NCBI GenBank assembly: GCA_903913915.1
Contig: CAIWNE010000123.1
Coordinates: 1 to 60,600, forward strand
DNA: 60,600 nt
Reading direction: 5' to 3'
From: an uncultured Opitutia bacterium
GTDB lineage: Bacteria > Verrucomicrobiota > Verrucomicrobiia > Opitutales > UBA953
Shown: one piece after another, positions 2,990-53,643 of the stretch
Position numbering within the stretch: the first letter of the stretch is position 1
How the letters are laid out: each line of letters starts with the position of its first letter
Position numbers and translations under genes: made by a program
Notes under the pieces: model-generated
The model's database searches: none
What the model was told of the DNA's origin: nothing
The model's input: only the letters and a program-made list of their open reading frames with translations

Positions 2990-3080
2990 GAGCGGCTGGG
3001 ACTAGTTGATCGGTTGGCCGGAACCGATAAATGGCTGGCCGGTTGACAAGTTGACATGTGGACAAGGGGAAGAGGCAGGG

Positions 3081-3208
3081 CTCAACGGGGGCAGCATAGG
3101 GAGACGGAAATGGGTAGGGGCGTGCGGCCCGCACGCCCGCGGATGACCGGGCCGGTCATCCCTACCTTATGCCGTGGCATTCATCCCGGTCTCCGGTTTC
3201 CCTTTGAG
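3081..3208. repeat. Palindromic module B, copy 3 (filled apex)
   Basis: CTCAACGGGGGCAGCATAGG on the left and GGTCTCCGGTTTCCCTTTGAG-type arm on the right, with C' (3114-3165) inserted between. One base of the left arm is changed (CTCAACGGG). Confidence 0.7.
3114..3165. repeat. Double-hairpin module C', copy 1
   Basis: 52 bases from GTAGGG to CCCTAC with two 9-bp hairpins, each with a one-base centre: GGCGTGCGG-C-CCGCACGCC and GATGACCGG-G-CCGGTCATC. It is identical, base for base, to the copy at 7618-7669. Confidence 0.8.
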
Positions 3209-3220
3209 TGCAGCACGCTC

Positions 3221-3361
3221 TCGGGTCTCAGGTCTCGGCTGATCGGGTATCAGGTACGGGGCTTCAGGTTCGGGCACGGGTGCGGGCAAGAATCCCGAAC
3301 CTGCACCTGGTGCTGAACACCTGAACCTGATACCTGATGGCCGAGACCTGGGACCTGAGAA
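3221..3361. repeat. Long hairpin module D, copy 2
   Basis: Outer arms GGTCTCAGGTCTCGGCTGAT and CCGAGACCTGGGACCTGAGA, inner arms GGTATCAGGT / ACCTGATACC and CAGGTTCGGG / CCCGAACCTG. It folds into one hairpin of about 140 bases with small internal loops. Confidence 0.75.
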
Positions 3362-3468
3362 TGAGGTTACGCAACTAGGACGTGACTCGGTCCCGACCCT
3401 ACCCATGTCAGGTGTTGGTGGTTGGCGGATAGCGATTGCGAACCCACGCGACGCCTTACGTCGCGTCC

Positions 3469-4710
3469 TTACCTCAGGACCTCGGCGCCTTTGGAGCGGT
3501 CGAAATCCTTGTTCCAGCGGGCGATGACCAAGGTGGCGACGGCGTTGCCGACGAAGTTGGTGAGCGCGCGGGCCTCGGACATGAAGCGGTCGACGCCGAG
3601 GATGAGCGCGATGCCGGCCACCGGCACGTGGCCCGTGGTCGCGAGCGTGGCGGCCAGCGTGATGAAGCCGCTGCCCGTGACGCCGGCGGCGCCCTTGGAA
3701 GTCAGGAGCAGCACGCCGATCAGGCCGAGCTGCTGGCCGAGGGTCATCGGCGTATCGGTTGCCTGGGCGATGAAGAGAGCGGCCATCGTCAGGTAGATGC
3801 AGGTGCCGTCGAGATTGAAGGAATAGCCTGCCGGGACGATGATGCCCACCGACGTGCGGTCGCAGCCCACGCGCTCCATCTTCTCCATCAGGCCCGGCAA
3901 GGCCGACTCGGAGGAAGAGGTGCCGAGCACGATCGCCAGTTCCTCGCGGACGAGCTTCAGGATCTTCCAGAGGCTGAAGCCGGCGAGATGCGCGATGCCG
4001 CCCAGCACGCAGAAGATGAAGAGGAAAGACGTGAGATAGACGCAAAGCATCAGCTGACCCAGCTGATGGAGCGTGCCCATGCCGTATTTGCCGATCGTGA
4101 AGGCCATCGCGCCGGCGGCAGCGAGCGGGGCGACCTTCGTCACGATGTTCACGATGCCGAAGAAGACGGAGGAAGCCTCCTTCAGGACCGTCAGCATCGG
4201 CTTGCCGCGCTCGCCCAGGTGCGACAACGCCACCCCGAAGAGCACCGAGATCAGGAGCAGCTGGAGCGTATCGCCGTCGACGAAGGCGCTCACGAAAGTC
4301 TTCGGGATGATATGCAGGAGCGTGTCGACCACGCCGGCCGTGCGGGCGGCGTCCGTATAGGCCGCGACCGATTTCGCATCCAACGAAGCCGGCGTGGCAT
4401 GGAAGCCCGCGCCCGGCGTGAAGACGTTGGCCACGACCAGGCCGATGAGCAGCGCCAAGGTCGTCACCACCTCGAAATAGACGAACGCCTTCCAGCCGAT
4501 CCGGCCGGCCTTGCGCAGGTCGCCCATCCCAGCGAGCCCCACCACGACCGTCGTGAAGATGATCGGCCCGATGAGCATCTTCACCAGGGCGACGAACGCG
4601 TCGCCCAGCGGCTTGAGCTGAGTGCCGAACTCCGGCCAGAGACAGCCGATCAGCCCGCCGAGGAGCACGCCGAGCAGGACCTGGACGTAGAGATGACGGA
4701 GGAAGCGCAT
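3469..4710 (-). CDS. dctA: C4-dicarboxylate:cation symporter DctA
   Basis: The protein imports succinate, fumarate and malate across the inner membrane with protons (DAACS family). The 413-residue product has about eight transmembrane helices and two re-entrant hairpins. The family signatures are clear: the serine-rich hairpin [17 protein letters not shown], the helix-7 motif [10 protein letters not shown], the second hairpin [13 protein letters not shown] and [14 protein letters not shown], which together fit DctA better than glutamate-type GltP/GltT. Length matches the family (about 420-430). I chose the ATG whose codon occupies 4708-4710, because the in-frame extension upstream of it is low-complexity. 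It is monocistronic and converges on the VWA-like gene. The TAA stop is at 3469-3471, next to a repeat cluster. Confidence 0.92.
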
Positions 4711-4933: not shown

Positions 4934-6094
4934 ATGCGTACCCCCCTGGCCCTCCTCCTCGCCGTCCTCGCCGCGCACGCTGCCGAATCCGAACACGTCC
5001 GTTCTTCCGACGACCAAGGCGCCGCGGTGCTCAGCCGTATCAGCCACCCTTACGCTTCGACCGGACCGACCGGATACATCCCGGCCCAGGTACGTCACGC
5101 CTACGGCCTGGACCTGCTCGCCAACGGCGGAGCCGGTCAGGTGATCGGCGTCGTCGTCGCCTACGGAAGCCCGACGTTGCAGAACGACCTGAACGTCTTC
5201 TCCGACCAGTTCAAACTGCCGCGGACGACGCTCCAGACCGTCTACGGAACGCGCAAGCCGACCAAGAGCGATTCCGGCTGGGCGCTGGAGACCTCGATGG
5301 ACGTCGAATGGGCGCACGCCCTTGCGCCGAACGCCACGATCGTCGTCGCGGTAGCCTACAGCGCAAGCCTCTCGGACCTGATCGCCGCCGTCGACGCCGC
5401 GACCAAGGCCGGCGCCAAGGTCGTCACCATGAGCTGGGGCGCGGCCGAATTCAGCGGCGAAGCCACCTACGACAGCCACTTCCAGAAGGCCGGCGTGACC
5501 TTCTTCGCTTCCTCCGGCGACAAAGGATCGACCGCCGGCACCTCCTGGCCCGCCGTCTCGCCGAACGTGACCGCCGTCGGCGGCACGACGCTGTATCTGG
5601 ACTCCACCGGCAAACTCCTTTCGCCTGAGACGGCGTGGTCCGGTTCCGGCGGCGGCTTCAGCACCTACTTCGCGATTCCTTCCTTCCAGGCGGGCTGGCA
5701 ACCCAGCTCCAAGCGGGCCTACCCGGACATCGCGCTCGTCGCGGATCCGGCCACCGGCCTGGCCGTCTACGATTCCACGCCCTACAACAACACCGTCGGC
5801 TGGTGGCAGGTCGGCGGCACCAGCGCCAGCAGCCCGCTCTGCGCGGCCATGACCGCCCTCGCCAACGAACAGCGCGCGGCCAAGGCCAAGGCCACGCTGA
5901 CCGGAGGACAGAAGCTGCTGTACGCCTTGGCCGGGTCGGCCGACGCGACGAACACCTCGCTATACCCCTACTTCTTCTACGACGTCACCGCCGGCAACAC
6001 CGGCAACTACAGCGCGACCGCCAAATACGACGAGACCACCGGACTCGGCACGCCCATCGGACAGAACCTAGTGCCGGCGCTAGCCGCCCAATAA
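4934..6094 (+). CDS. Secreted S53 (sedolisin-family) serine-carboxyl peptidase
   Basis: This is an exported protease of 386 residues with a Sec signal peptide (residues 1-17, MRTPLALLLAVLAAHAA). The S53 catalytic set is visible: E119 and D123 in WALETSMDVEW with the family's E-x3-D spacing, oxyanion D196 in SSGDKGS, and nucleophile S297 in GGTSASSP. A C-terminal segment (about 345-380, YDVTAGNTGNYSATAKYDETTGLGTP) corresponds to the Ca2+-site region of the family. Most sedolisins carry a prodomain of about 150-190 residues; here only about 25-30 residues separate the signal peptide from the catalytic domain, so activation must differ. It is monocistronic, with its own promoter candidate. Confidence 0.9.
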   Translation: MRTPLALLLAVLAAHAAESEHVRSSDDQGAAVLSRISHPYASTGPTGYIPAQVRHAYGLDLLANGGAGQVIGVVVAYGSPTLQNDLNVFSDQFKLPRTTLQTVYGTRKPTKSDSGWALETSMDVEWAHALAPNATIVVAVAYSASLSDLIAAVDAATKAGAKVVTMSWGAAEFSGEATYDSHFQKAGVTFFASSGDKGSTAGTSWPAVSPNVTAVGGTTLYLDSTGKLLSPETAWSGSGGGFSTYFAIPSFQAGWQPSSKRAYPDIALVADPATGLAVYDSTPYNNTVGWWQVGGTSASSPLCAAMTALANEQRAAKAKATLTGGQKLLYALAGSADATNTSLYPYFFYDVTAGNTGNYSATAKYDETTGLGTPIGQNLVPALAAQ

Positions 6095-6152: not shown

Positions 6153-7364
6153 ATGACCCGACCGGCCACCTCGTTCCGCCCCCTCCTCGCGCTCGGCCTC
6201 CTCCTGCTGACCGGTTGCGAGCGGGAAAAGCCGATGCCGGACAACGAGAACGCCGTGACGGCCTTCGCGCTGCAGCACTTCGTGGACAGCGACGAGATCA
6301 GCGGCGCCGTGACCGCGGTGGTCGGCCCGGACGGCATCATCGCCGTCGAAGCCTTCGGTCTGGCGGACATCGCCAAGAAACGATCCATGGGGAAGGACTC
6401 CATGTTCTGGATCGCCTCGATGACCAAGCCCATGACCTCCATGGCGCTCATGATGCTCGTCGAAGAAGGCAAGGTGAAGCTCGACGACCCCCTCGAGAAA
6501 TATGTCCCCGAATTCAAAGGCATCCAGGTCAAGACCGCACAGGGACTCGTCGCCGCGACACGCCCGATCACCGTCAAGGACCTCCTGACGCATACGAGCG
6601 GCATCGACACCGGGGCCGTCACCCCGCCCGGCGCGCCGATCGACACCCTGCCCCTCGCCGAGATGGCCGTCGCCTATGCCAAGAAGCCGCTGACCGACCA
6701 GCCCGGGACCAAGTGGACATACAACAACAACGCCATCAACCTGCTCGGGCGCATCATCGAAGTCGCGAGCGGCAAGCCCTACGCCGACTTCATGGAAGAG
6801 CGCCTGTTCGAGCCCCTCGGCATGACGAACACCACCTTCTGGCCGACCTTGGACCACATGGACGTCCTCGCCAAACCTTACAGCAAGAACAAGGAGACCG
6901 GCGCGCTCGTCGAAGCGAAGAACAGCCGCTTCAGCGAACCCCTGCATGACCCCAAGCGCACGCCCTTCCCCGCCGGCGGCCTGTATTCGTGCGCCAAGGA
7001 CCTCGGCAAACTCTACCAGATGCTGCTCAACAACGGCGAGCTCAACGGAAAGCGCTACCTCAAGGCCGCGACCCTGAAGCAGATGACCAGCAACCAGCTC
7101 GGCGACCTCCCCAAGGTCAGCTTCGCGCCCGGCATGCACATGGGCCTCGGATTCCACATCGTGCACGAGCCCCAGGAAGTCACCGAGAGCCTCAGCGTCG
7201 GAACTTACGGCCACGGCGGCGCCTTCGGCACCCAGGCGTGGATCGACCCCGTGAAGAAGCGCGCCTACGTCCTGCTCATCCAGCGCACCGACCTCAAGAA
7301 TTCGGACCAGAGCGAGATCCGCCGCGAATTCCAGAAAGCGGCGAAGGAAGCGTACGCGAAATAA
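6153..7364 (+). CDS. Class C beta-lactamase-like serine hydrolase, lipoprotein
   Basis: The product is 403 residues with a lipoprotein signal (LALGLLLLTGC, lipidated Cys near residue 25), so it is anchored to an envelope membrane. The penicillin-binding/class C fold is supported by S89-M-T-K92 (SxxK), Y190-N-N192 (YxN) and H354-G-G (the KTG-equivalent, as in EstB-type esterases). The HGG in place of KTG fits an esterase or D-aminopeptidase better than a true beta-lactamase. The ATG is one of the few in the window with an upstream purine-rich site (GGTCGGAGCC). It follows the S53 gene by 58 bases and may share its transcript. Confidence 0.88.
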   Translation: MTRPATSFRPLLALGLLLLTGCEREKPMPDNENAVTAFALQHFVDSDEISGAVTAVVGPDGIIAVEAFGLADIAKKRSMGKDSMFWIASMTKPMTSMALMMLVEEGKVKLDDPLEKYVPEFKGIQVKTAQGLVAATRPITVKDLLTHTSGIDTGAVTPPGAPIDTLPLAEMAVAYAKKPLTDQPGTKWTYNNNAINLLGRIIEVASGKPYADFMEERLFEPLGMTNTTFWPTLDHMDVLAKPYSKNKETGALVEAKNSRFSEPLHDPKRTPFPAGGLYSCAKDLGKLYQMLLNNGELNGKRYLKAATLKQMTSNQLGDLPKVSFAPGMHMGLGFHIVHEPQEVTESLSVGTYGHGGAFGTQAWIDPVKKRAYVLLIQRTDLKNSDQSEIRREFQKAAKEAYAK

Positions 7365-7391
7365 CGCGGAGCGATATTTCGCGAGGGGGAA

Positions 7392-7422
7392 CGCTGGCAT
7401 GGTGAACTGCTGCGAAGCAGCG
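7392..7422 (+). repeat. End motif G, left end of cluster IV
   Basis: It begins CGCTGGCATGGTGAACTGCT and continues to GCGAAGCAGCG. The reverse complement, with a few changes, closes the cluster at 7935-7962, giving terminal inverted repeats about 570 bases apart. Confidence 0.7.
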
Positions 7423-7582
7423 ACACCACAGCGGAGGGACAAGGGGCCAACAAGAGGCCGAGAGGCTCGGTTGATCAGAACGAGGCAGAAGAGTTGATCG
7501 GTCGACCCGTGGGCCGGTGGGCCAGACGCACGACTAGCTGGCCGGTTGACAAGGTGACAGGTGGGCAAGTGGAGATGCAGGG

Positions 7583-7711
7583 CTCAAAGGGGGCAGCAGA
7601 GGGAAACCGGATAATTGGTAGGGGCGTGCGGCCCGCACGCCCGCGGATGACCGGGCCGGTCATCCCTACCCAAGCCGCAGCATTCATTCCGGTCTCCGGT
7701 TTCCCTTTGAG
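7583..7711. repeat. Palindromic module B, copy 4 (filled apex)
   Basis: CTCAAAGGGGGCAGCAGAGG and GGAAACCGGA on the left, TCCGGTTTCCCTTTGAG on the right, with C' (7618-7669) in the apex. Confidence 0.75.
7618..7669. repeat. Double-hairpin module C', copy 2
   Basis: Identical over all 52 bases to 3114-3165, although the surrounding B arms differ. This indicates recent spread or gene conversion. Confidence 0.8.
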
Positions 7712-7727
7712 CGCAATAACTCATCTT

Positions 7728-7855
7728 CGGGTCTCGGGTCTCAGCTGATCGGGTATCAGGTACGGGTCTTCAGGTTCGGGTACGGGTCCTGAACCTGCAC
7801 CTGGTGCTGAACACCTGAACCAGACACCTGATGGCCGAGACCCGGGACCTGAGAA
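7728..7855. repeat. Long hairpin module D, copy 3
   Basis: Outer arms CGGGTCTCGGGTCTCAGCTG and GCCGAGACCCGGGACCTGAG; the apex region TACGGGTCCTGAACCTGCAC is free of inserts. Confidence 0.75.
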
Positions 7856-7907
7856 TGAAGGCGATGCAGCACTGTCGTGACGCGGTCACGACCCTGCCCA
7901 AACAGAA

Positions 7908-7929
7908 CAGCCGCCCGGGTGGGCGGCTG
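7908..7929 (+). terminator. GC-rich hairpin, possible terminator
   Basis: CAGCCGCCC-GGGT-GGGCGGCTG, a 9-bp perfect stem followed by ATTGGTT. The weak U-content makes intrinsic termination uncertain. Confidence 0.45.
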
Positions 7930-7934
7930 ATTGG

Positions 7935-7962
7935 TTCGCAGCCGTTCCCCATGCCAGCAGAG
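7935..7962 (-). repeat. End motif G, inverted, right end of cluster IV
   Basis: TTCGCAGCCGTTCCCCATGC followed by CAGCAGAG is the reverse complement of motif G at 7392-7422 with a few substitutions. Confidence 0.7.
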
Positions 7963-7991
7963 CCTCACGCGAGACGAGGCAGCACGGCCCA

Positions 7992-8012
7992 TTGACATTA
8001 CTGTCACATAAT
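7992..8012 (+). promoter_or_regulatory. Inverted-repeat operator and promoter candidate of the RND operon
   Basis: TGACA-TTAC-TGTCA (7993-8006) is a perfect inverted repeat. It overlaps a TTGACA (7992-7997) and abuts CATAAT (8007-8012), about 40 bases before the pump's ATG. The layout fits a regulator that blocks or recruits polymerase. No regulator gene is adjacent, so the protein that would bind is unknown. Confidence 0.45.
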
Positions 8013-8052
8013 CGAAACCTTTGGCACTTACGGCGGTTACCCTTACGTCCCC

Positions 8053-11205: not shown

Positions 11206-12205
11206 GCTCCTCGCGCTCTTCCTGGGCGCGCTTTCCCTGCAAGCCGCCGACCTCACCGTCACCCGGCTGAAGACCGGCGACATCACGCGCAGCGTCCAGC
11301 TGCTCGGCGAAGTCCGCCCCAACCAGCAGGTCGCGCTCTACGCCAAGGTCGGCGGCTACGTGAAGGCCCTGCATGCCGACATCGGCGACCGCGTCGAAGC
11401 CGGCTTCGTCCTCGCGGAACTCGAGGTGCCTGAGCTCGTCGCCGACGAAGCCCGCACCCGCGCCGAACTCACGCTCGCCGAACTCGAATTCAAGCGGACC
11501 CAGGACGCCTTCAGGCAGGCGCCGGACCTCATGCCGCGCCAGAACGTCGACAGCGCGCAGGCCAGGCTGGCCGTCGCGAAGGCCCAGCAGGAACGCAACG
11601 CCACCCTGCTCGGCTTCGCCCAGATCAAGGCGCCCTTCGCGGGCACCGTCAGCCGACGCTCCGTGGACAAAGGCGCCTTCGTGCCCGCCGCGACCGGGGG
11701 CGGCGCAGGCCAGGCCGCGCTCTTCGTGCTGACCGACGCCGCGACCGTCCGCATCCAGGCAGCGCTGCCGGAGACCGAAGCCGGGCTCGTCGCCGTCGGC
11801 CAGCCGGTCGCCGTGCTCGCCGAGGCCGCGGGCGCCAAGCCCTTCGACGCCAAGCTCACGCGGGTGTCCGGAATCCTCGACAACCCCAGCAAGACCATGC
11901 TGATCGAAGCCGAACTCGCCAACGCGGGCGGCGTGCTCAAGCCCGGCATGTACGCCAACGTGAAGCTCGGCATCGAGACGCACAAGGCCGCCGCCCTGCT
12001 TCCCCTGACCGCCATCGTCATGGAGAAAGCCGTCGCCACCGCCTACGTCAACGAAGGCGGCAAGGCCCGTCGGCGCGTGCTCAAGGCCGGCTTCAACGAC
12101 GGGACGCACCTCGAGGTCCTCGACGGCGTCAAGCCGACCGAAGACGTCCTCGTCGTCGGCACCGCCACCCTCGCCGACGGCCAGTCGGTCACCCTCGCCA
12201 AGTGA
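11192..12205 (+). CDS. RND periplasmic adaptor (membrane fusion protein)
   Basis: The 337-residue product begins with a short Sec signal (MPSPKLLALFLGALSLQA). It shows the adaptor layout: a lipoyl half-motif (NQQVALYAKVGGYVKALHADIGDRVEAGFVLAELE, about residues 45-80), a short alpha-hairpin, the second lipoyl half (AQIKAPFAGTVSRRSVDKGAFV), and beta-barrel and membrane-proximal domains. It would bridge the pump and the outer-membrane channel. Its ATG lies within the pump gene (14-base overlap) and its stop overlaps the next start, so the three genes are translationally coupled. Confidence 0.92.
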   Translation: MPSPKLLALFLGALSLQAADLTVTRLKTGDITRSVQLLGEVRPNQQVALYAKVGGYVKALHADIGDRVEAGFVLAELEVPELVADEARTRAELTLAELEFKRTQDAFRQAPDLMPRQNVDSAQARLAVAKAQQERNATLLGFAQIKAPFAGTVSRRSVDKGAFVPAATGGGAGQAALFVLTDAATVRIQAALPETEAGLVAVGQPVAVLAEAAGAKPFDAKLTRVSGILDNPSKTMLIEAELANAGGVLKPGMYANVKLGIETHKAAALLPLTAIVMEKAVATAYVNEGGKARRRVLKAGFNDGTHLEVLDGVKPTEDVLVVGTATLADGQSVTLAK

Positions 12206-13509: not shown

Positions 13510-13625
13510 GCGCGGCGGAGCCGTGTCAAAATAGGTTGAAAAGTTGACCAGTTGGCCGGCGGGCTAGACGGACGATTAGATGGCTGGTCGGCAAGTTGAC
13601 GTCGGGGCAAGGCAAAGAGGCAGCG

Positions 13626-13712
13626 CTCAAAGGGGGCGGCCATGGGAGACCGGAATGTTAGCCGGGGGCATATGCCCATAGCATTAATCCCGGTTTCCGG
13701 CTTCCCTTTGAG
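13626..13712. repeat. Palindromic module B, copy 5 (no C element)
   Basis: CTCAAAGGGGGCGGCCATGG on the left and CCGGCTTCCCTTTGAG on the right. Its apex is the small palindrome GGGCATATGCCC rather than a C element. Confidence 0.7.
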
Positions 13713-13728
13713 CGCAGTAACTCTTCAT

Positions 13729-13854
13729 CGGGTCTCAGCTGATCGGGTATCAGGTACGGGGCTTCTGGTACGGGTACGGGCGCAGGCCCGAACCTGCACC
13801 TGGTGCCGAAACCCTGAACAAGAGACCCGAGGGCCGAGACCCGGGGCCTGAGAA
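13729..13854. repeat. Long hairpin module D, copy 4
   Basis: Shorter outer left arm (CGGGTCTCAGCTGATCGGG) against GGCCGAGACCCGGGGCCTGA. The inner arms are as in the other copies. Confidence 0.7.
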
Positions 13855-13902
13855 TGAAGACGAGTCAGCACTGTCGTGAAGCGACCCCGACCCCAACCTT
13901 CC

Positions 13903-13934
13903 GCTCTGCTTCGCAGCCGTTCACCATGCCAGCG
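13903..13934 (-). repeat. End motif G, inverted, right end of cluster V
   Basis: It starts GCTCTGCTTCGCAGCCGTTC and ends ACCATGCCAGCG. Its reverse complement nearly equals 7392-7422. Confidence 0.7.
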
Positions 13935-13961
13935 GATCCCCACGCGATGCGGGGCATCGCG

Positions 13962-16618: not shown

Positions 16619-17126
16619 ACGTCAGCGAGGGGGGCAAATGGGCACGGGGACATGGGGACACGGGGCAGACCACGAGGACGCGAGGGCCGGATGGCTCGTG
16701 GGCCGGACTAAGGCACACGAGTTGACCCGTTGACCGGTGGGCCAGTTGGCAAGGAAGACAAAGATACCGTGCAAAGGTGCAACTGCGGCGATACCGCGTG
16801 CAAAAGTGCAAAGGTGAGAGACAGAGATACATTTCCATGTCTCGGGTCTCGGCAGTGAGGAGCCAGGTGCGGGTTATCAGGTACGGGTTCGGGTGCGGGC
16901 CTGAACCTGTACATGTAAGTGCGCCAGAACACCTGAACCTGATACATGATGGCCGAGACCTGGGACCTGAGAGTGAGTTTGAGACAGCTATGTCGTGACG
17001 CGGTCCCGACCCTACCCAAGACAGACTGCTGAGGTGGAAAAAACGGCGTTCGGAAGGCCGGCGAAATGCCGAGACATACTTCCTTACAACCTTGCCCCTG
17101 GATAGGGGTTACTTAGTCAGATTCAT
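16619..17126. repeat. Intergenic module cluster VI
   Basis: 508 bases without a gene: a G-rich GGCACGGGGACATGGGGACA segment (about 16640-16659), a module A fragment (16720-16754), F (about 16769-16816: GTGCAAAGGTGCAA and GTGCAAAAGTGCAAAGGTG around a short hairpin), D (16840-16972) and E (16990-17017). Module B is missing here; F lies in its place. Confidence 0.68.
16840..16972. repeat. Long hairpin module D, copy 5
   Basis: TCTCGGGTCTCGGCAGTGAG on the left and GGCCGAGACCTGGGACCTGA on the right. The centre reads GGGCCTGAACCTGTACATG with some drift from the other copies. Confidence 0.7.
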
Positions 17127-20386: not shown

Positions 20387-21252
20387 GCCTCGCGAAGCCG
20401 GTCGGCCTCACGGGCCCGGAACTGGCTGGGCGTGAAACCCGTGTGCTTCTTGAAGTCCTTGCTGAAGAAGTAACGGTCCGAGTAACCCACCTGTTCGGCG
20501 ATCTCCTTGATGTCGTCGGCCGTATCGGCGAGCCGGCGTTTCGCCTGGCTGATGCGTTCGCGCCGCAGCCAGTCGATCGGACTCGTGCCGAAGGACTGCT
20601 TATAGACGCGTGAGAAGTGGGTCGGACTGAGCCCTGCCAGCCGGGCGAGCGAAGCCACCGTGTGCTTCTGGAAGTAGAAGAGCTTCATCTGCTCCACGCA
20701 GCGGGCCAGCGCCGGCGGGATCTTCGGCGCCATCTCCCCCGACCGCTGCCGGGCGCAATAAGCCTGGGCGACCAACTCCGCCACCTGCGCATGGATCAAC
20801 GCGGGCGACGACGGGGCGTCCTGAGGGATGAGCCGGAAGAGCTCCTTGAAGACCGGGACCGCCTCACGCAGGTCCATCCCGCCGACGACCGGAGCGTCGC
20901 GGACGCCGAGCAGGTCGGACAGCTGCGCCAGCCGCGGCCCCTCCGCGCGGACCCAATAGACCTCCCATGGGTCGTCTTGGACCGCGCCGTGCTCGTGCGG
21001 ATGATGGCAGTTGATCCAGACCAGGTCGCCGCGACGCACCTGATGCACGCGCCCCGCGATGCGCGTCCACCCCTTGCCGCGGAGGCAGAGGATGAGCTCG
21101 TGTCCCGGAAAGTGGTCGCGCTTGATGTGGTGCTCCGTGCCTGCGAGCAGGTGGCCCGCGCGGGGCACCGTATAGAACACCTCCTGATGGGAGGGATTCG
21201 GGGTCGCATAGAGCGAGACCGGGAAACGGTTGGCGACGGGGGGCTGAGCCAT
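20383..21252 (-). CDS. AraC-family transcriptional regulator with cupin sensor
   Basis: The 289-residue product has an N-terminal cupin-like effector domain (HFPGHELILCLRGKGW, GDLVWINCHHPHEHG; residues about 30-100) and a C-terminal double helix-turn-helix (about 195-285) with the typical SLARLAGLSPTHFSRVYKQSFG and IAEQVGYSDRYFFSKDFKKHTGFTPSQFR. It probably senses a sugar and controls the divergently transcribed DUF1549/DUF1553 operon starting 72 bases away. The ATG at 21252 fits the protein start and a TATTAT box directly upstream. Tail to tail with the GH79 gene, it shares four bases. Confidence 0.93.
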   Translation of the reverse strand: MAQPPVANRFPVSLYATPNPSHQEVFYTVPRAGHLLAGTEHHIKRDHFPGHELILCLRGKGWTRIAGRVHQVRRGDLVWINCHHPHEHGAVQDDPWEVYWVRAEGPRLAQLSDLLGVRDAPVVGGMDLREAVPVFKELFRLIPQDAPSSPALIHAQVAELVAQAYCARQRSGEMAPKIPPALARCVEQMKLFYFQKHTVASLARLAGLSPTHFSRVYKQSFGTSPIDWLRRERISQAKRRLADTADDIKEIAEQVGYSDRYFFSKDFKKHTGFTPSQFRAREADRLREA

Positions 21253-21324
21253 GGTAGGATAATACAACCTGCCGGCAGGGCCTTGCCATTTAAAACTCCG
21301 GGCTTCGGCGTAGAATGTCCCGAG
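21253..21324. promoter_or_regulatory. Divergent promoter region, AraC / DUF1553 operon
   Basis: On the minus strand TATTAT (complement of 21259-21264) lies six bases from the AraC ATG, so that transcript may be leaderless. On the plus strand TAGAAT (21311-21316) is a candidate -10 for the cytochrome gene. CTGCCGGCAG (21269-21278) is a short perfect palindrome between them. All are motif-level calls. Confidence 0.4.
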
Positions 21325-24300
21325 ATGACCCAGCCGGCCCCGCTGCTCCTCGCCTTCATGGCATTCCTGCTCCCCGCCCGCGCGGCGGAGCCGGTCAGTT
21401 TCAGCCGCGACGTCCTGCCGATCCTCTCCGACAACTGCTTCGGGTGCCACGGCCAGGACGAAGCGCACCGCAAGGGCAAGCTGCGACTCGACCTGCGCGA
21501 CGCCGCCCTGGCCAAGGAGGCCTTCGTCCCCGGCCAGCCCGACCTCAGCGAACTCATCAAGCGCGTCGTCACCGCCGACGAGGAAGAACTCATGCCGCCG
21601 CCCAAGTCGCACAAGGCGCGGCTCACCGCGGCGCAGACGGACATCTTGCGCCGCTGGATCGCCGAAGGCGCCGTCTGGGGAAGGCATTGGTCCTTCGAAC
21701 CCCCGGCGAAAGCGCCGGTCGTCGGACACCCCGTCGACGCCTTCGTCGACAAGAAGCTCGCCGCCGAGGGACTCACGCGTGCCAAGGAAGCGCCCAGGCA
21801 CACCCTGCTCCGCCGCCTTTCCTTCGACCTCATCGGACTGCCGCCCACCGAAGCCGAAACCGCGGCGTTCCTCGCCGACAACTCGCCGCAGGCCTATGAG
21901 CGGGCCGTCGACCGCCTGCTGGACTCGCCTCATCACGGCGAGCGGATGGCCATGTGGTGGCTCGACGCCGCGCGCTATGCGGATACCGACGGCTTCCAGT
22001 CCGACTCCACGCGCACCAACTGGGCATGGCGCGACTGGGTCGTCGAGTCGTTCAATCGCAACGTACCCTACGACCGGTTCACCCTCGAGCAGTTCGCCGG
22101 GGACCTCCTGCCGAACGCCACGCCCGAACAGAAACTGGCGACCTGCTTCCAGCGCAACCACATGACCAACGGCGAAGGCGGCCGGGATCCGGAGGAGTCC
22201 CGCGTCGACTACGTCCTCGATCGCGTGAACACCATGGGCACCACATGGCTGGGCATGACGCTCGGTTGCGCGCAGTGCCACAGCCATAAGTTCGACCCCG
22301 TCACGCAGGCCGACTACTACGCCCTCTCCGCCTTCTTCAACAGCATCGACGAAGACGGCAAGGCCGGCGGCGCCGCCAAGCCCTTCCTGCCCTACCAATC
22401 CAAGCACGCCGCCCGCGCGATCGCCGAGGCCCAGCAGCTGGTCGACGCCGCCAAGCCCGCCGAGGCCCGCGCCCGAAGCGAGGCCGAGACGTCGTTCACC
22501 CGATGGCTCGAAGAACGCCGTCAACAGACGAAGCCCGGCTGGAGCACCTGGAAGATCATCAAGGCGGACGCCCTCGAGACCGCGGAAGGCACCGTGCTGA
22601 AGCAGGAGGCCGACGGCGCCGTCCAAGCCTCCGGTCCGCATCCGAACCAGGACGAATACCGGATCGTCAGCCACGACCGCCTGGAACGCATCACCGGCCT
22701 ACGCATCGAAGTCCTGCCCCATCCCTCGCATACCAAGGGCGGACTCTCCCGAGGCAAGGACGGGGAGTTCAAGCTCACCGACATCAAGGTCCAGGTCCGC
22801 ACACGGGGGAACAACCAGATCCGAGACATCCTCATGGCCAACGCCGTCGCCGACGTGATGGCCGACAAGAAGAAGAACAACAACTATGGCGACGTGAAGG
22901 ACACGCTGGACGACGACCCCCGCAACGGCTGGACGACCAAGGGCTTCGACCAGACCAAGCCGCATGTCGCCGTCTACGCGCTCGCCGAACCGCTCGTCCT
23001 CGGGGTGGACGACGAACTCATGATCGAGCTGCGCCAGCGCTCGACGCTGGGCGACGCCAACATCGGCCGCTTCCGACTGGCCATCGCATCGGAAGCAGGC
23101 GAAGCCGTGAACAAGGTCGGGGCCAGCCCGCGCGAAGAGCTGGCCGCCCTCCCATCCGGCCAGCCGATCGGACCCAAGCTGCGCGAACGCCTCTTCGACG
23201 AATTCCTCGCCGACCACGCACCCTACCAGACCTCGCGCCTCGCCCTGGATCGCGCCCTGCGACAGCTGAGCGAGACCAAGGCCGCCGCCGGCAAGCTCAA
23301 CGTCATGGTCCTCGCCGAGCGCAAGGAACCGCGCGACACCTTCGTCCTCGTACGCGGCGTGTGGGACAAGCATGGCGACAAGGTCGGACCCGACGTACCC
23401 AAGGCGCTCGCCCCTTGGCCCGAAGGCGAACCGCGCACCCGCCTCGGCCTCGCCCGTTGGCTGACCTCCAAGGACAACCAGCTGACCGCCCGCGTGACCG
23501 TGAACCATCTCTGGCAGATGCTCTTCGGCCAAGGTCTCGTGAAGACCACGGAAGACTTCGGACTCCAGGGCGAACGACCGACGCACCCCGAGCTGCTCGA
23601 CTGGCTGGCCGTGGACCTCGCCGAGCATGGCTGGGACCTCAAGCGCACGCTCAAGCTCATCGTCATGAGCGACACCTACCGCCAGGACTCGTCCGTCACG
23701 CCGGCCCTGCTCGCCAAGGACCCCGAGAACCGCCTCTTCGCCCGCGGCGCCCGCTTCCGCCTGCCCAGCTGGATGATCCGCGACGGCGCGCTGCTGAACG
23801 CCGGCCTCTTCAACCCCGCGATCGGCGGACCGCCCGTGCGCCCATACCAACCCGACGGCGTCTGGGAGGAACTGTTCATGGGACGGTTCAAATATGAGCC
23901 CAGCGAAGGCGCGGCCCAGTATCGTCGCACCCTCTACGCCTTCTGGCGTCGCTCCATCGCGCCCACCTTCCTGTTCGATTCCGCCCAGCGTCGCTCCTGC
24001 GAAGTGCGCATCGGACGGACGAACACCCCGCTCCAGGCGCTCACCTTGCAGAACGACCTCACCTACCTCGAAGCCTCGCAAGCCATCGCCACCGCCATCC
24101 TCCGCACCTCCGGCGACGACGGCCGGCTGCAGGCGCTCGGCCGCAAGGTGCTTTCACGGACGTTCGACGAGCGCGAGGCCGCCCAACTCGGCAAGACCCT
24201 GGACCACGCCCGCGCGCATTACCGCAACCACCCCGCCGACGCCGCGAAGTTCCTCAAAGTCGGCCAGCGTGATCCCGCAGGCGCCGACCTGCCTGAGCTC

Positions 24301-24363
24301 GCCGCCTGGACCGTGGTCGCGAGCCTCGCCCTCAACCTCGACGAGGCGATCACGCGGGAATGA
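21325..24363 (+). CDS. PSCyt1-DUF1549-DUF1553 cytochrome c protein (first paralogue)
   Basis: The 1012-residue exported protein (signal MTQPAPLLLAFMAFLLPARA) has the planctomycete/verrucomicrobial architecture. PSCyt1 carries heme motif C38-F-G-C-H42. DUF1549 contains AARYADTDGFQSD and a second CxxCH, C315-A-Q-C-H319. A middle insert (about residues 370-640) includes a coiled segment and a beta-rich part (LERITGLRIEVLPHP). DUF1553 ends the protein (RLGLARWLTSKDNQLTARVTVNHLWQ, TNTPLQALTLQND). The family's reaction is unproven; it is thought to serve periplasmic oxidation of carbohydrate. It leads an operon with the propeller and DUF1501 genes, divergent from AraC. Confidence 0.9.
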   Translation: MTQPAPLLLAFMAFLLPARAAEPVSFSRDVLPILSDNCFGCHGQDEAHRKGKLRLDLRDAALAKEAFVPGQPDLSELIKRVVTADEEELMPPPKSHKARLTAAQTDILRRWIAEGAVWGRHWSFEPPAKAPVVGHPVDAFVDKKLAAEGLTRAKEAPRHTLLRRLSFDLIGLPPTEAETAAFLADNSPQAYERAVDRLLDSPHHGERMAMWWLDAARYADTDGFQSDSTRTNWAWRDWVVESFNRNVPYDRFTLEQFAGDLLPNATPEQKLATCFQRNHMTNGEGGRDPEESRVDYVLDRVNTMGTTWLGMTLGCAQCHSHKFDPVTQADYYALSAFFNSIDEDGKAGGAAKPFLPYQSKHAARAIAEAQQLVDAAKPAEARARSEAETSFTRWLEERRQQTKPGWSTWKIIKADALETAEGTVLKQEADGAVQASGPHPNQDEYRIVSHDRLERITGLRIEVLPHPSHTKGGLSRGKDGEFKLTDIKVQVRTRGNNQIRDILMANAVADVMADKKKNNNYGDVKDTLDDDPRNGWTTKGFDQTKPHVAVYALAEPLVLGVDDELMIELRQRSTLGDANIGRFRLAIASEAGEAVNKVGASPREELAALPSGQPIGPKLRERLFDEFLADHAPYQTSRLALDRALRQLSETKAAAGKLNVMVLAERKEPRDTFVLVRGVWDKHGDKVGPDVPKALAPWPEGEPRTRLGLARWLTSKDNQLTARVTVNHLWQMLFGQGLVKTTEDFGLQGERPTHPELLDWLAVDLAEHGWDLKRTLKLIVMSDTYRQDSSVTPALLAKDPENRLFARGARFRLPSWMIRDGALLNAGLFNPAIGGPPVRPYQPDGVWEELFMGRFKYEPSEGAAQYRRTLYAFWRRSIAPTFLFDSAQRRSCEVRIGRTNTPLQALTLQNDLTYLEASQAIATAILRTSGDDGRLQALGRKVLSRTFDEREAAQLGKTLDHARAHYRNHPADAAKFLKVGQRDPAGADLPELAAWTVVASLALNLDEAITRE

Positions 24364-24424
24364 GAGCATTGAGCATGGAGCATAGGAGACACACCCAAAC
24401 AGCATCCAAACTCTCACCATCATC

Positions 24425-24450
24425 TATCTGTCATCTATCATCTCATCTTC
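24425..24450 (+). promoter_or_regulatory. Pyrimidine-rich leader before the propeller gene
   Basis: The bases before the ATG are TCATC/TATC repeats (ATCTATCTGTCATCTATC) without any purine-rich ribosome site. Similar leaders precede genes at 30940, 42154 (minus), 50391 and 59500. Confidence 0.4.
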
Positions 24451-25515
24451 ATGCCTCCCCTTTCCCGTCGTTCCTTCCTCGCCACCGGCGCCGCCGCCTT
24501 GGCCGCCCCGAGCGTGCTTGCGCAGGCAGGCGCGACCCCCGCGCACCATGGCGAAATCGTCGGCCATGGCGAGTTCCGCTACCGCGTGGACAAGCTCTGG
24601 TGCCAGGCCGACAAGGCCAAGCACCCCGTCAAAGATTGCCATGAGATGGTCCAATCCTCCGACGGACGCCTGTTCCTGATCACCAACCTCAAACAGAACA
24701 ACGTCCTCGTCTTCGACGTCGCGGGCAAGGTGCTCGACGCCTGGAGCCTCGGCCTGAGCGCCGGCCACGGCCTCACCCTGCACCGCGAAGCCGACGGCAC
24801 GGAATACCTTTACCTCACCGACAATTCCGGGCGCGTCATCAAGGCCACGCTCGACGGAAAGTCAGTGCTCGAGCTTCCGCATGCGCAGAAATGCGGAGCC
24901 TATTCGGACAAGGAGCCCTATTCGCCGACCGAGACCGCCGTCGCGCCCAACGGCGACATCTACGTCGCGGACGGCTACGGTTCGCAATACGTGCTCCGGT
25001 TCGACCGGCACGGGAAATACCTGAGCAAGTTCGGCGGCAAGAGCACCCAACCCACGAACCCTGGCAGATTCATGCAGGCGCACGGGGTCACGCTCGACAC
25101 CCGCGGACCGGAGCCCCTGCTCGTCTGCACCGAGCGCATCCGCAACGAGTTCAACTGGTTCACCCTCGAAGGAAAGCACGTGCGCGGCGTCTACCTGCAC
25201 GGCGCGTACGTCAGCCGGGCCGTGATCGCCGGCAAGCAGCTCTACTCCGGCGTCTGCTTCGGCGCCAAGCCCGACGACACCCGCATGTGGCAGGGCCGCG
25301 GCTTCGTCACCATCCTCGACGAGCATGACCGCGTCGTCTCCAATCCCGGAGGCCAGGAACCCAGGTACGTCGAGGGGCGGCTCCAGCTCATGCTGCAGGA
25401 CCGGCCCGTCTTCAACAACTGCCACGACGTCTGCGTCGACAGCCGCGGCGACCTCTACGTCTGCCAATGGTCCAGCGGCAACGTCTACCCCGACAAACTC
25501 CATCGCCTCTCATGA
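24451..25515 (+). CDS. Tat-exported six-bladed beta-propeller (NHL-like) protein
   Basis: The 354-residue product has a twin-arginine signal (MPPLSRRSFLATGAAALAAPSVLA). The rest is NHL-type blades, visible as repeated strand-Asp-Gly patterns: GRLFLITNLKQNNVLVFDVAGKVLDAW, EYLYLTDNSGRVIKATLDGKS and GDIYVADGYGSQYVLRFDRHGKYLSKFGG. A C-terminal blade ends at GDLYVCQWSSGNVYP. It has no heme site. It lies between the DUF1553 gene (87 bases downstream of it) and the DUF1501 gene, which it overlaps by four bases (ATGA). It may be a binding subunit of that pair. No enzymatic residues can be named. Confidence 0.8.
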   Translation: MPPLSRRSFLATGAAALAAPSVLAQAGATPAHHGEIVGHGEFRYRVDKLWCQADKAKHPVKDCHEMVQSSDGRLFLITNLKQNNVLVFDVAGKVLDAWSLGLSAGHGLTLHREADGTEYLYLTDNSGRVIKATLDGKSVLELPHAQKCGAYSDKEPYSPTETAVAPNGDIYVADGYGSQYVLRFDRHGKYLSKFGGKSTQPTNPGRFMQAHGVTLDTRGPEPLLVCTERIRNEFNWFTLEGKHVRGVYLHGAYVSRAVIAGKQLYSGVCFGAKPDDTRMWQGRGFVTILDEHDRVVSNPGGQEPRYVEGRLQLMLQDRPVFNNCHDVCVDSRGDLYVCQWSSGNVYPDKLHRLS

Positions 25516-26954
25516 GCCCCGACCCGCTCGACCCCTCGCGCCGCTACTTCCTCGGCCAGTGCACCGGACTTTCGATCGGCGCCATGGCGCTGTCGACGCT
25601 TGTCGGCCGGGCCCTGGCCGCGTCCGACGCCGGCAAGCCCGGCCTACCTAACCTGCCGCACTTCGCCGCCAAGGCCAAGCGCGTCATCTTCCTCACCCAG
25701 TCCGGCGGCCCCTCGCAGATCGAACTCTTCGACGAGAAACCCGGCCTCATGAAGCTCGCCGGCACCGAGCTGCCGGAGTCCGTGCGCCGCGGGCAGCGAC
25801 TGACCACGATGACCTCGGGCCAGAAGCAGCTGATCAAACCCGCCGCGACGAAATTCGAACGCTGCGGCCAGGGCGGCCAGAGCATCGGCGAATGGCTGCC
25901 GCACCTCAAGACCGTGGCCGACGACCTCTGCGTCGTGCGGTCGATGCACACCGACCAGATCAACCACGCGCCCGCCATGACGGAGTTCCTGACCGGGCAT
26001 CAGATCCCCGGCCGACCGAGCCTCGGCGCCTGGGCGAGCTACGGGCTCGGCAGCGAAAACCGAAACCTGCCCGACTACCTCGTGCTGCTGTCGAAGATGC
26101 AACGCCCCAGCGACCAGCCGTTGTACGACCACTACTGGGGCAGCGGCTTCCTTCCCTCGCGCTACCAAGGCGTCAAGCTCCGCAGCGCCAAGGACCCCGT
26201 CCTCTACCTGCGCGATCCCGACGGCCTTCCGCGCGAACTGCGCCGCGACATGCTCGACGGACTCGGCGCCCTCAACCAGCAGGCCCTCGAGCGCAGCGGC
26301 GACCCCGAGATCTCGACGCGCATCCGCCAATATGAGATGGCGTACCGGATGCAGGCGAGCGTGCCGGAGCTCACCGACCTCAGCGACGAGAAGGACGAAG
26401 TCTTCGAACTCTACGGACCCGACTCGCGTCGCCCCGGCAGCTACGCCGCCAACTGCATCCTCGCCCGCCGCCTGATCGAACGTGGCGTGCGTTTCGTGCA
26501 GCTCTTCCACCCCGACTGGGATCACCACAGCCGGCTCACCTCGTGGTGCACCGCGCGTTGCCGCGACACCGACCAACCCAGCGCCGCGCTGATCAAAGAC
26601 CTCAAACGACGCGGACTCCTCGAGGACACCCTCGTCGTCTGGGGAGGCGAATTCGGCCGCGGCGTCGCCGGCCAAGGCAAGTGGGACAGCCCTGAGGCAG
26701 GCCGCGACCACCATCCGCGCTGCTTCACCATGTGGATGGCCGGAGGCGGCATCAAGGCCGGCACCAGTTACGGCGAGACGGACGACTTCAGCTACAACGT
26801 CGCCAAGGACCCCGTGCACGTGCACGACCTGCACGCCACCATCCTTCACCTGATGGGCATCGACCATGAGCGCTTCACATACCGCCATCAGGGACTCGAT
26901 TTCCGCCTCACCGGAGTCGAGCCCGCGAAGGTCGTGAAAGGGATCATCGCGTAA
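25512..26954 (+). CDS. Tat-exported DUF1501 protein (sulfatase-fold), first paralogue
   Basis: The 480-residue product has a twin-arginine signal (DPSRRYFLGQCTGLSIGAMALST). The DUF1501 domain has an alkaline phosphatase/sulfatase-like fold and its hallmarks are present: KAKRVIFLTQSGGPSQIELFD, the MHTDQINHAPAMTEFLTG segment, LVVWGGEFGRG and DHHPRCFTMWMAGGGIKAG, ending in VHDLHATILHLMGIDHERFTYRHQGLDFRLTG. In this lineage DUF1501 genes follow DUF1549/DUF1553 genes and probably form a complex with them; the reaction is unknown. It starts inside the stop of the propeller gene, so translation is coupled. Confidence 0.9.
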   Translation: MSPDPLDPSRRYFLGQCTGLSIGAMALSTLVGRALAASDAGKPGLPNLPHFAAKAKRVIFLTQSGGPSQIELFDEKPGLMKLAGTELPESVRRGQRLTTMTSGQKQLIKPAATKFERCGQGGQSIGEWLPHLKTVADDLCVVRSMHTDQINHAPAMTEFLTGHQIPGRPSLGAWASYGLGSENRNLPDYLVLLSKMQRPSDQPLYDHYWGSGFLPSRYQGVKLRSAKDPVLYLRDPDGLPRELRRDMLDGLGALNQQALERSGDPEISTRIRQYEMAYRMQASVPELTDLSDEKDEVFELYGPDSRRPGSYAANCILARRLIERGVRFVQLFHPDWDHHSRLTSWCTARCRDTDQPSAALIKDLKRRGLLEDTLVVWGGEFGRGVAGQGKWDSPEAGRDHHPRCFTMWMAGGGIKAGTSYGETDDFSYNVAKDPVHVHDLHATILHLMGIDHERFTYRHQGLDFRLTGVEPAKVVKGIIA

Positions 26955-27307
26955 ACGCGGACGGACAACGAGCCGGCAGACTGGCAAATTGACGAGGGAG
27001 CTAGCACGAGAGGCCCGGAGGCCAGAGGCTCGGTTGACCAGGACACCTCTTCAGGTCTCGGGTCTCAGCGGCCAGACATCGGGTACGGGTCCTGAACCTG
27101 TGACCTGAGGGCTGAGACCCGGGACCTGAGAATGAATCACCCCGCAGCATATATTCCGGTCTCCCTTTGAGCGCTTGGCTCACTATGTCGTGACGCGGTC
27201 CCGACCCTACCTCGACACTCCATACTCCAGGGCTTCCGCCTCCATTTCCCGCCATTTGAACAAGTGCGGTTGACGCGTGTCGAAGGGCGATAGACAACAG
27301 CTGACCC
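26955..27307. repeat. Intergenic module cluster VII (rearranged)
   Basis: 353 bases without a gene: a module A fragment (about 26973-27000), GAGGCCCGGAGGCC..GAGGCTCGGTTGACCAG (about 27009-27041), a short D (27052-27131), then only the right half of B (27144-27171, ATTCCGGTCTCCCTTTGAG) and E (27185-27211). Here the B remnant follows D, unlike other clusters. Confidence 0.65.
27052..27131. repeat. Long hairpin module D, copy 6 (internally deleted)
   Basis: Only 80 bases long. Outer arms (CAGGTCTCGGGTCTCAGC / GCTGAGACCCGGGACCTG) are intact, but the inner arms are mostly lost, leaving CGGGTACGGGTCCTGAACC at the apex. Confidence 0.7.
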
Positions 27308-30742: not shown

Positions 30743-30939
30743 GGGCGGCGAAGCCGCCAGGGGGCACGTGGGCAAGGGGACACGTGGACATGGGAAACCA
30801 AAAGAGAGGCCGGGACCGAAAGGTGCCCGGTCTCTTGTTTTGGGCAGCAAAGCTTTGGGTGGCCGGTGGGAGGCATGGTCGATTCGACATCATCTATCCT
30901 TTATCCCCGCCGATTATCATCCATCTTCACCCCACCCCC
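30743..30939. repeat. Short intergenic region with hairpin, terminator and pyrimidine leader
   Basis: Directly after the stop comes GGCGGC-GAA-GCCGCC (30744-30758), then a GGCACGTGGGCAAGGGGACA segment (about 30763-30782) shared with other clusters, a terminator (30803-30842), and a leader rich in ATC/CAT triplets (30887-30939). Modules B and D are absent. Confidence 0.55.
30803..30842 (+). terminator. Intrinsic terminator
   Basis: GAGAGGCCGGGACC, loop GAAA, GGTGCCCGGTCTC, then TTGTTTTG. This is an imperfect but long stem with a T-rich tail, the best intrinsic terminator in the window. Confidence 0.75.
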
Positions 30940-39549: not shown

Positions 39550-39716
39550 GCGAAGCCGAAGCCTTCGAGGGGGGCATGTGGGCACGAGGGCCAGAGAGAG
39601 GCCGCGCAAAGGTGCAAATCGGAGCGACGCACCTGTGCAAAAGTGCAAATGCAGGGGGCAGCGTTTCGGGTGGCAGGTGGCGGCCTCAGATGACTGGTGG
39701 CAGGGCGTGATATTTT

Positions 39717-39835
39717 CAGGTCTCGGGTCTCGGCAGTCGAGAGCCAGGTACGGGTTGTCAGGTTCGGGTACGGGTACGGGCCCTGAACCTGTACCTGAAC
39801 CCGTGACCTGACGGCCGAGACCCGGGACCTGAGAA
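39717..39835. repeat. Long hairpin module D, copy 7
   Basis: CAGGTCTCGGGTCTCGGCAG on the left, ACGGCCGAGACCCGGGACCTG on the right minus its first base, with inner GGTTCGGGTACGGGTACGGG opposite CCTGAACCTGTACCTGAACC. Confidence 0.75.
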
Positions 39836-39925
39836 TGCTTCATCGGTCTCCGGTTTCCCTCGCTGAGGTGAATCGCTTCAGGTGGCAGGCCAGGCGTGGC
39901 GTGCGCCTCGACCTTTCCTTCGTTT

Positions 39926-39946
39926 TATAAATATCGATCATTTATA
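39926..39946. promoter_or_regulatory. AT-rich inverted repeat before the 40006 gene
   Basis: TATAAAT-ATCGATC-ATTTATA, with the 7-base arms perfect, in the only strongly AT-rich stretch of the window. A TATATA -10 (39943-39948) overlaps it. It may be a promoter with a dimer-binding site; the start codon is 60 bases downstream. Confidence 0.5.
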
Positions 39947-40005
39947 TACCCGCATCTCTTGGCCTGGGATTGACCTACGGACGGTGCGTGGGATTGAGTC
40001 CGCCC

Positions 40006-41088: not shown

Positions 41089-41152
41089 GCGAAGGCTGAG
41101 CCTTCGAAGGGGCAAGCAGCAAGGTGGCACGTGGACATGGCGAGATACTGCA

Positions 41153-41297
41153 CTCAAAGGGGGCAGCATAGGGAGACCGGGTGATCAGCTGGGGACATCA
41201 TGGTAGGAGCGTGCGGCCCGCGCGCCTACGGATGACCGGGCCGATTATCCCTAGCCATGTCCGCAGCAAACATTCCGGTCTCCGGTTTCCCCTTGAG
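41153..41297. repeat. Palindromic module B, copy 6 (filled apex)
   Basis: CTCAAAGGGGGCAGCATAGG on the left and CGGTTTCCCCTTGAG on the right. The apex halves GGGGACAT and ATGTCC flank the inserted C', showing exactly where the insertion split the small palindrome that copy 1 keeps intact. Confidence 0.75.
41203..41254. repeat. Double-hairpin module C', copy 3 (decayed)
   Basis: Same 52-base length as 3114-3165 with several substitutions (GTAGGAGC at the left end, CCCTAG at the right, GATTATC in the second stem). Confidence 0.7.
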
Positions 41298-41345
41298 CGG
41301 GCATATCTTGCCGCCCTCCGCGAACCGACGACGACTCATCCAAAC

Positions 41346-41370
41346 AAAAAAGCCCCCGAGTCCGGGGGCT
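41346..41370 (-). terminator. Intrinsic terminator of the DoxX operon
   Basis: On the minus strand: AGCCCCCGG-ACT-CGGGGGCT followed by TTTTTTG. This is a strong stem with a six-T tail, about 20 bases after the DoxX stop. Confidence 0.85.
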
Positions 41371-41391
41371 GATGCGAGAGGCCGTGATGGC

Positions 41392-48677: not shown

Positions 48678-48716
48678 GCCAGAAGGCCTGCCCCCACCCC
48701 GCCCCCTTTTAGCCCG

Positions 48717-53532: not shown

Positions 53533-53573
53533 GGAGGTAGGGGCAGCACCACGTGCTGCCCTAGGTGATCGGG

Positions 53574-53627
53574 TAGGGCTGACCCCCCTTGGTCAGCCGC
53601 GGTTGAGCGAGGGCGCTCAACCCTACC
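53574..53627. repeat. Double-hairpin module C-type, different stems
   Basis: GTAGGG to CCCTAC as in the other C elements, but with stem sequences unlike both C and C'. Only the ends and the two-hairpin plan are conserved. Confidence 0.6.
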
Positions 53628-53643
53628 CAAGAAAGTCAAAACA

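Follow-up and report, generated by a model that had tools for sequence, protein, structure and literature searches.

The cassette and the long intergenic stretches of the window

The window, the whole stretch of 60,600 nucleotides analysed here, is contig C123 of a 2.53-Mb genome assembled in 148 contigs, and one of its proteins has its nearest named relatives in MAGs that carry the label Opitutae or Verrucomicrobia. Downstream of a hydrolase gene, positions 7365-8052 are occupied by a series of short repeated modules. We refer to these as M1a/M1b (a G-rich segment), M2, M3, M4 (degenerate units of about 8 bp), B (a palindrome, CTCAAAGGG...CCCTTTGAG), C (a REP dimer), D (a hairpin of about 137 nt) and E (a single REP); K and F are additional modules absent from the original prediction. 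The parts of the cassette are:

7355-7383, + strand: stop-codon hairpin of the hydrolase gene upstream (CGCGAAATAACGC-GGA-GCGATATTTCGCG, with one mispair); AGGGGG comes next
7393-7421, + strand: M1b motif (CTGGCATGGTGAACTGCTGCGAAGC...), present at 39 places genome-wide
7455-7488, + strand: M2 segment, by profile
7492-7525, + strand: M3, degenerate short units (TTGATCGG, TTGACC, GGGCC), by profile
7536-7570, + strand: M4, degenerate short units (GGCCGGTTGACAAGGTGACAG), by profile
7577-7713, + strand: palindrome B, arms 7577-7615 and 7675-7713, with module C in the loop
7618-7669, no strand: module C, head-to-head dimer of GTAG REPs (GTAG-GGGCGTGCGG.. and GTAG-GGATGACCGG..)
7722-7857, + strand: long hairpin D (profile match 7726-7857; inverted ends CATCTTC...GAGAATG read from the sequence)
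7873-7898, - strand: module E, a GTAG-type REP whose foot is here GCAG, read from the sequence
7909-7928, no strand: GC-rich hairpin without a T-run, between E and the inverted M1b, read from the sequence
7933-7957, - strand: inverted M1b copy, by pattern match

Module E has an intact foot at 16992-17015 and 27187-27210. A simple gene finder leaves 11 gaps of at least 290 bases in the window, and profile or REP matches fall in all 11, as had been claimed for every gene-free stretch above about that length. Seven of these gaps hold at least three kinds of module; those at 39550, 41089, 53533 and 59205 hold one or two. The cassette at 7365-8052 is the most complete cluster of the window, as also predicted. 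The others, all given on the + strand, are:

216-689, +: stop hairpin, M1a, M2, M3, M4, uninterrupted B, REP dimer
1227-1810, +: B whose loop holds a different REP dimer; D with a remnant of K mid-way; REP
2990-3468, +: M4, B with module C, D, E
13510-13961, +: M3, B, D, E-like module (by eye), inverted M1b adjoining a convergent gene
16619-17126, +: M1a, M3, K array (by eye), D, E
26955-27307, +: M2, short D, right half of B, E
39550-40005, +: D (profile); K array and F pieces (by eye)
41089-41391, +: stop hairpin; B with a decayed module C
53533-53929, +: three GTAG REPs, D
59205-59499, +: M1b-like segment (three mismatches), D
60412-60541, +: D copy at the window end, with the start of E after it (by eye)

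An Rfam scan of the window at gathering score gave no match for the modules and returned tRNA only. ARAGORN places a tRNA-Ser at 5173-5251 (- strand) inside an ORF; it has no Rfam match and is probably false. Three sets of paralogous neighbouring genes lie at 20662-26954, 46224-50174 and 53930-59204 (repeat families D3, D7, D10 and D14).

The modules recur outside the window. Allowing up to three mismatches, the 2.53-Mb genome has 39 places that fit the M1b pattern, 40 that fit the right half of D and 41 that fit the right half of B, and none that fit these patterns read backwards. These places are confined to 14, 15 and 17 of the 148 contigs, respectively. Of 20 contigs fetched regardless of matches, six read as N, and M, B or D modules are present on three of the 14 readable ones. 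Module filling is thus regional, not genome-wide: the suggestion that the cassette fills almost all long intergenic regions holds for the window (11/11) and fails for the genome (3/14 match-blind contigs). Some module is found in 74 of 92 gaps of at least 250 bases in our own-genome loci, which were mostly picked since they had matches. The six all-N contigs are left out of the gap, stop-hairpin, gene-end, GC3 and polarity counts and add nothing to the order counts, and they remain inside the 485-kb survey of GTAG sites described below. Beyond this genome, parts of the 7365-8052 cassette match 28 of 36 relatives of the same genus and none of 20 genomes from other families of the order (E-value of at most 1e-6, no more than nine candidates scored per genome). 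Named loci duplicating other sampled genomes were left out, six from the B/D interruption counts and seven from the stop-hairpin, order and gene-end counts. A link to phages was considered and dropped, one D end having given no exact match in viral contigs.

Nested palindromes and REP modules

Uninterrupted B is about 94 nt long. Under a strict pairing rule, 198 B matches in 1.30 Mb resolve into 67 near-full and 20 interrupted copies, the rest being partial matches that were not scored as insertions and many of which end near the loop. All 20 interrupted copies are broken at model positions 46-62 of 94, that is, in the loop; an insertion within about 20 nt of a B end would escape detection. 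A looser rule yields 27 pairs, of which one is a duplicate; 24 of the 26 distinct copies are broken at positions 46-63, the exceptions being L181 and L065, where B is not cleanly broken at the loop. Reading of the loci added D in the B loop at L162 and L163, which both pairing rules had missed. The inserts of the 20 strict copies comprise 16 REP dimers by reading, some of them decayed, and otherwise D-like hairpins (L129, L167) or unassigned DNA. Many inserts consist of one C dimer joined at an identical junction, and so represent copies of few events. Treating only about six kinds of insert as independent, and positions 20-74 as visible, we estimate the chance of all falling within the 17 loop positions at about 0.001. 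The loop is also the least conserved portion of B, and selection for intact arms would produce the same picture.

Nesting extends to D. Among 59 near-full D copies, six (174-209 nt) carry a GTGCAAAG module (K) mid-way, four of them whole and two shortened; in the D copy at L059 9233, K lies, by eye, about 73 nt from one end and 69 nt from the other. The D search itself found no D split into two separated matches. An RNAalifold consensus of 36 D copies, computed from a gappy alignment of 220 columns, has 16 pairs, of which two show compensatory change. The idea that modules were added stepwise gains support from REP dimers, D and other hairpins lying inside the B loop. Both B and D have terminal inverted repeats of the kind expected of MITEs; inspection by eye of the B-loop insertions and the orthologous gaps revealed no target-site duplication, and no related autonomous element for B or D was found among 22 Y1 transposase genes. 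We do not assign B and D to the MITEs.

The inserted dimers belong to a recognisable class. In the 485 kb surveyed, GTAG precedes a perfect 8-bp stem in 103 of 2148 cases (4.8%), compared with a median of 0.08% per tetranucleotide; the two highest values are those of TAGG (7.3%), which is GTAG shifted by one, and AAAA (5.7%). The GTAG-footed stems are of many types, and at least one of the 103 sites lies inside a gene. Oppositely oriented neighbours (R+/R-) within 60 nt number 44, with a gap of 2 nt in 24. Modules C and E both have GTAG or a degenerate form of it beside a short hairpin, copies are many and mostly extragenic, inverse dimers occur, and for module C a cognate RAYT flanked by the same REP exists in G023 and G028; the likeness of E to REPs beside three RAYTs of relatives was judged by eye only. 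Module C and, judged on sequence, E are GTAG-footed REPs. GTAG REPs are a described super-family reported in the verrucomicrobial Opitutus terrae (PMC3733652), and the original view of the whole composite as something unknown does not extend to C and E.

Matches to Y1 transposases are present in 28 of 57 genomes, with three in our genome (two above the Pfam cut-off), and 22 of the 29 matches in the genus were examined. All ten short genes (RAYT-type, 136-182 aa) have GTAG REPs on both flanks, and the REP stems beside them go with the protein clade. The clade of own C33, G001 C54, G007 and G028 C73 has the REP types GGTTGACC/GGCTGACC/GGTTGAGCG, own C69 is flanked by GGACAGCAC, and the clade of G002, G015 and G026 C63 by GGTCAGCAC/GGTCGGCAC. 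Both stems of module C, GGGCGTGCGG and GGATGACCGG, flank the RAYTs of G023 and G028 C149; beside the latter gene there are also stem variants, plus another REP downstream. This RAYT type is absent among the three Y1 genes of our own genome, which is 94% complete. Against NF047646 (REP-associated tyrosine transposase, cut-off 80), own C33 scores 81.8, the G023 protein beside the C stems 79.8, own C69 72.8 and the long own C25 62.9. In G002, G023 and G026 C63 a GTAG foot provides, with its TAG, the stop codon of the RAYT gene, and such use of GTAG as a stop codon or contact with the ORF has been described (PMC3733652). The 12 long Y1 genes, with which a 171-aa copy of the long type (G020_C8) is counted, carry GGGGTCAG in at least one flank in all 12 cases and in both flanks in eight, some lying at contig ends. 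The proposal of a mobilising enzyme acting in trans is supported for the REP modules by RAYT-type genes of the genus with matching REPs on both sides, including two short ones of our own genome outside the window. It finds no counterpart for B, D and M1-M4: no enzyme for them was found among the Y1 genes, and none of these modules lies within 400 nt of any of the 22.

Order, polarity and turnover of the blocks

The order M1, M2/M3, M4, B, D is kept in 233 of 275 module pairs in 45 clusters of our genome and in 127 of 156 pairs in 43 clusters of relatives, pairs inside one cluster not being independent. What had been described as a nearly fixed order is a preferred one. D relative to the right half of B accounts for 19 of the 42 exceptions in our genome, because D is located either within B or beyond it. 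Among the 29 exceptions in relatives, a large part comes from M1a versus M2 and M3 (6), D versus the right half of B (all 6 pairs) and M2 versus M3 (4). The arrangement at 26955-27307, taken originally for a single rearrangement, is common: 19 of the 38 such pairs in our genome have D ahead of the right B half. Modules of a pair share the strand in 154 of 187 cases in our genome and 128 of 138 in relatives.

Two other loci, one of which was read whole, match the 7365-8052 cassette co-linearly over 372 and 346 nt at 85% identity. Module junctions are alike at different loci; for example, a 13-nt linker between B and D is identical at window position 1412 and at L059 4142. The shared junctions and the co-linear matches argue that blocks are copied as units, in agreement with the original suggestion of a composite copied as a whole. 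D copies are more alike within contigs than between them (identity 0.824 vs 0.753; 0 of 5000 permutations), the within-contig value including neighbours in one cluster (L064, L065).

Blocks also keep their orientation along a contig. Pairs of clusters within a contig are concordant in 66 of 77 cases in our genome, against 38.7 expected under a model that carries the tandem-gene bias (0 of 20,000 simulations), and in 86 of 99 cases in relatives, against 62.2 expected (P = 0.016). On C98 all seven clusters are co-oriented despite mixed gene contexts. In tandem gaps, blocks follow the direction of the genes in 15 of 25 cases in our genome and 20 of 24 in relatives. K arrays lie on the block strand in 36 cases and opposite in 4, and C dimers in 8 and 0, many of both lying inside blocks, whereas E is opposite to the block strand in 4 of 4. 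Other directional parts do not share this polarity, namely the REP GACAGCAC (2 same, 8 opposite), F (1 and 1) and M1b (12 and 6); since M1b ignores block polarity, the reading of the two M1b copies of the cassette as terminal repeats of one element was dropped. Among the matches listed for relatives there are runs of one orientation (e.g. 11 of 12 on G014 C36), a switch inside G001 C35 and mixed contigs (e.g. G014 C79 and G015 C5). Block orientation does not track GC3 skew (rho = -0.06, P = 0.83, 15 loci), which gives no leading- or lagging-strand assignment. Local duplication could account for part of the polarity and of the within-contig likeness. In Pseudomonas fluorescens SBW25, tandem REP arrays are forward on one side of the genome and reversed on the other (PMC3116915). 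As a separate observation, block orientation on own contigs C123, C98, C25, C122 and C70 is coherent whatever the gene strand.

Module content turns over between relatives. It differs at five orthologous positions (3 to 11 genomes each), so that length is not conserved as a composite element had been expected to show: orthologous gaps carry different subsets. At a sixth position, a gap of 90-98 nt holds no modules in 7 of 7 genomes. The stretch ahead of the next gene still aligns though the module sets differ. L084 and L085 share about 115 near-identical nucleotides and continue with F in one and D in the other, and the L191 and L160 gaps at one orthologous position span several kilobases with other DNA inside. 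No clean empty site was found, the sole candidate pair having masked bases in the gap. Some side observations can be recorded: an F hairpin (TTTCGGGTGGCAGGTGGCGG...) occupies the place that D has in a close relative (L084 11031-11470, L085 5986-6438); F resembles D and a third type as if all three were sister hairpins; and G014 and G015 are rich in another, symmetrical palindrome, whose CCGGTTTCCGGTCTCCC-type ends are separated by about 60 nt (e.g. G014 C21 399-481).

We consider it somewhat probable that the clusters are a mosaic of small non-coding mobile palindromes present in much of the genus, which nest in each other's loops and are copied over short range on single strands. RAYTs would move the REP modules in trans, as proposed for other REPs, and extruded hairpins would expose the loop as a single-stranded target. 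Short-range copying of blocks would take place on one single strand, most likely in the wake of a replication fork, through RAYT-type single-strand transposition or template switching; deletion and re-insertion would then leave each locus with its own subset of modules. A bolder version, which we put forward tentatively, sees a class of self-nesting palindromes that form loop-targeted stacks, with C or D inside B and K inside D. Whole stacks would be copied at the fork, over short distances and on one template strand, their orientation marking the chromosome arm and not the gene. Ordinary recombination or gene conversion among neighbouring gaps might instead have spread the blocks, giving a composite without a transposase in which only the REPs move. 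The within-contig likeness and orientation, the identical B-C junctions repeated at several loci and the lack of an enzyme for B and D among the Y1 genes all agree with it. By itself, however, such exchange leaves unexplained both the different kinds of insert at the same loop and the spread over 28 of 36 relatives, and we regard it as doubtful.

The position of the blocks relative to genes bears on a second alternative, in which selection keeps the modules in place as functional elements of gene 3' ends (stabilisers of mRNA, terminators or insulators), the blocks are immobile and their order reflects position relative to the gene. The M side lies at a gene 3' end in 31 of 47 clusters of our genome (P = 0.04 vs one half) and in 34 of 43 of relatives (P = 0.0002 vs one half); plain long gaps have a 3' end on the left in 59 of 99 and 73 of 134 cases. 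The claim that the order starts after a stop codon is thereby reduced to, at most, a preference for the 3' end of a gene. In addition, a perfect gene-specific hairpin, overlapping the stop codon or adjoining it, often precedes M1. Stems of at least 7 bp are found at 9 of 19 genes with M1 and 15 of 329 without in our genome (Fisher P = 4e-7), at 7 of 15 and 14 of 247 in relatives and at 3 of 5 and 2 of 66 in the named loci; 14 of 19 stop hairpins of M1 genes have 3-nt loops. The stop hairpin of the hydrolase gene also exists in L079, L086/L163 and L166, the change in L079 being matched on both arms. Stop hairpins, mostly with 3-nt loops and followed by GGGG, are seen at window positions 7355-7383, 30744-30758 and 41090-41106, and others at L070 (about 12067-12093, with the stop codon itself as loop) and L078 (about 4290-4310, - strand). 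They may be functional, a target, or a product of fold-back copying; an assignment as intrinsic terminators was dropped, because T-run terminators start only at +18 to +23.

The lean of the M side toward gene 3' ends and the stop hairpins kept in orthologues with a matched stem change speak for such 3'-end elements, as do the roles in mRNA stability and termination hypothesised for REPs (PMC3733652). Against this, module sets differ between orthologous gaps of relatives although the DNA leading up to the next gene aligns, blocks agree in orientation along a contig more often than gene direction would lead one to expect, and T-run intrinsic terminators exist separately, starting at +18 to +23 from the stop codon. 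We judge this explanation unlikely. Decay of a larger transposon with ends M1 and E, its internal modules now eroding, would fit the preferred order and co-orientation but is very improbable, since orthologous loci carry different sets and no gene-bearing B pair that could be a parent element was seen in the loci searched (which do not include L176-L191), where the sole far-apart B halves enclose an unrelated hydrolase.

Relation to known palindrome systems

Under the favoured reading, a mosaic of mobile palindromes, the REP parts are already known, and it is the loop-nested polar composite that appears new, with a mechanism that we infer. No earlier report of the composite was found in the open-access literature searched. 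The occurrence of palindromes of several families in loops, together with RAYT clades each beside its own REP, offers a natural data set for the choice of targets, and the same lineage offers one for the role of the replication fork in the spread of palindromes. It also shows what the long intergenic regions contain in parts of small freshwater Opitutae genomes.

The closest known systems are the GTAG REPs, BIMEs and REPINs with their RAYTs. Module C, E and the other R hairpins share with them the GTAG foot, the short hairpin and the head-to-head dimers, and the RAYT genes found here are flanked by matching REPs. To our knowledge, known REP clusters consist of REPs plus linkers, whereas here REP dimers lie inside the loops of unrelated longer palindromes, within an ordered block of several families. 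The REP dimers of O. terrae have spacers of 1-2 bp (PMC3733652). TIRYT/TIRtron repeats have the form GGGGWSAS (PMC3733652), which GGGGTCAG in the flanks of the long Y1 genes fits, but this is a minor component of the clusters and is neither B nor D. As in bacterial MITEs, B and D are intergenic with inverted ends, and D consists of short degenerate units much as BrickBuilt of Porphyromonas gingivalis holds a minisatellite (PMC4596501); B and D differ from MITEs in that no target-site duplication was recognised for them and no parent transposase was found among the Y1 genes, and in their loop nesting. Finally, IS1397 and ISPpu9 target REP palindromes (PMC1525189), and here too palindromes would be the preferred targets of insertion, but the inserts are themselves small palindromes.
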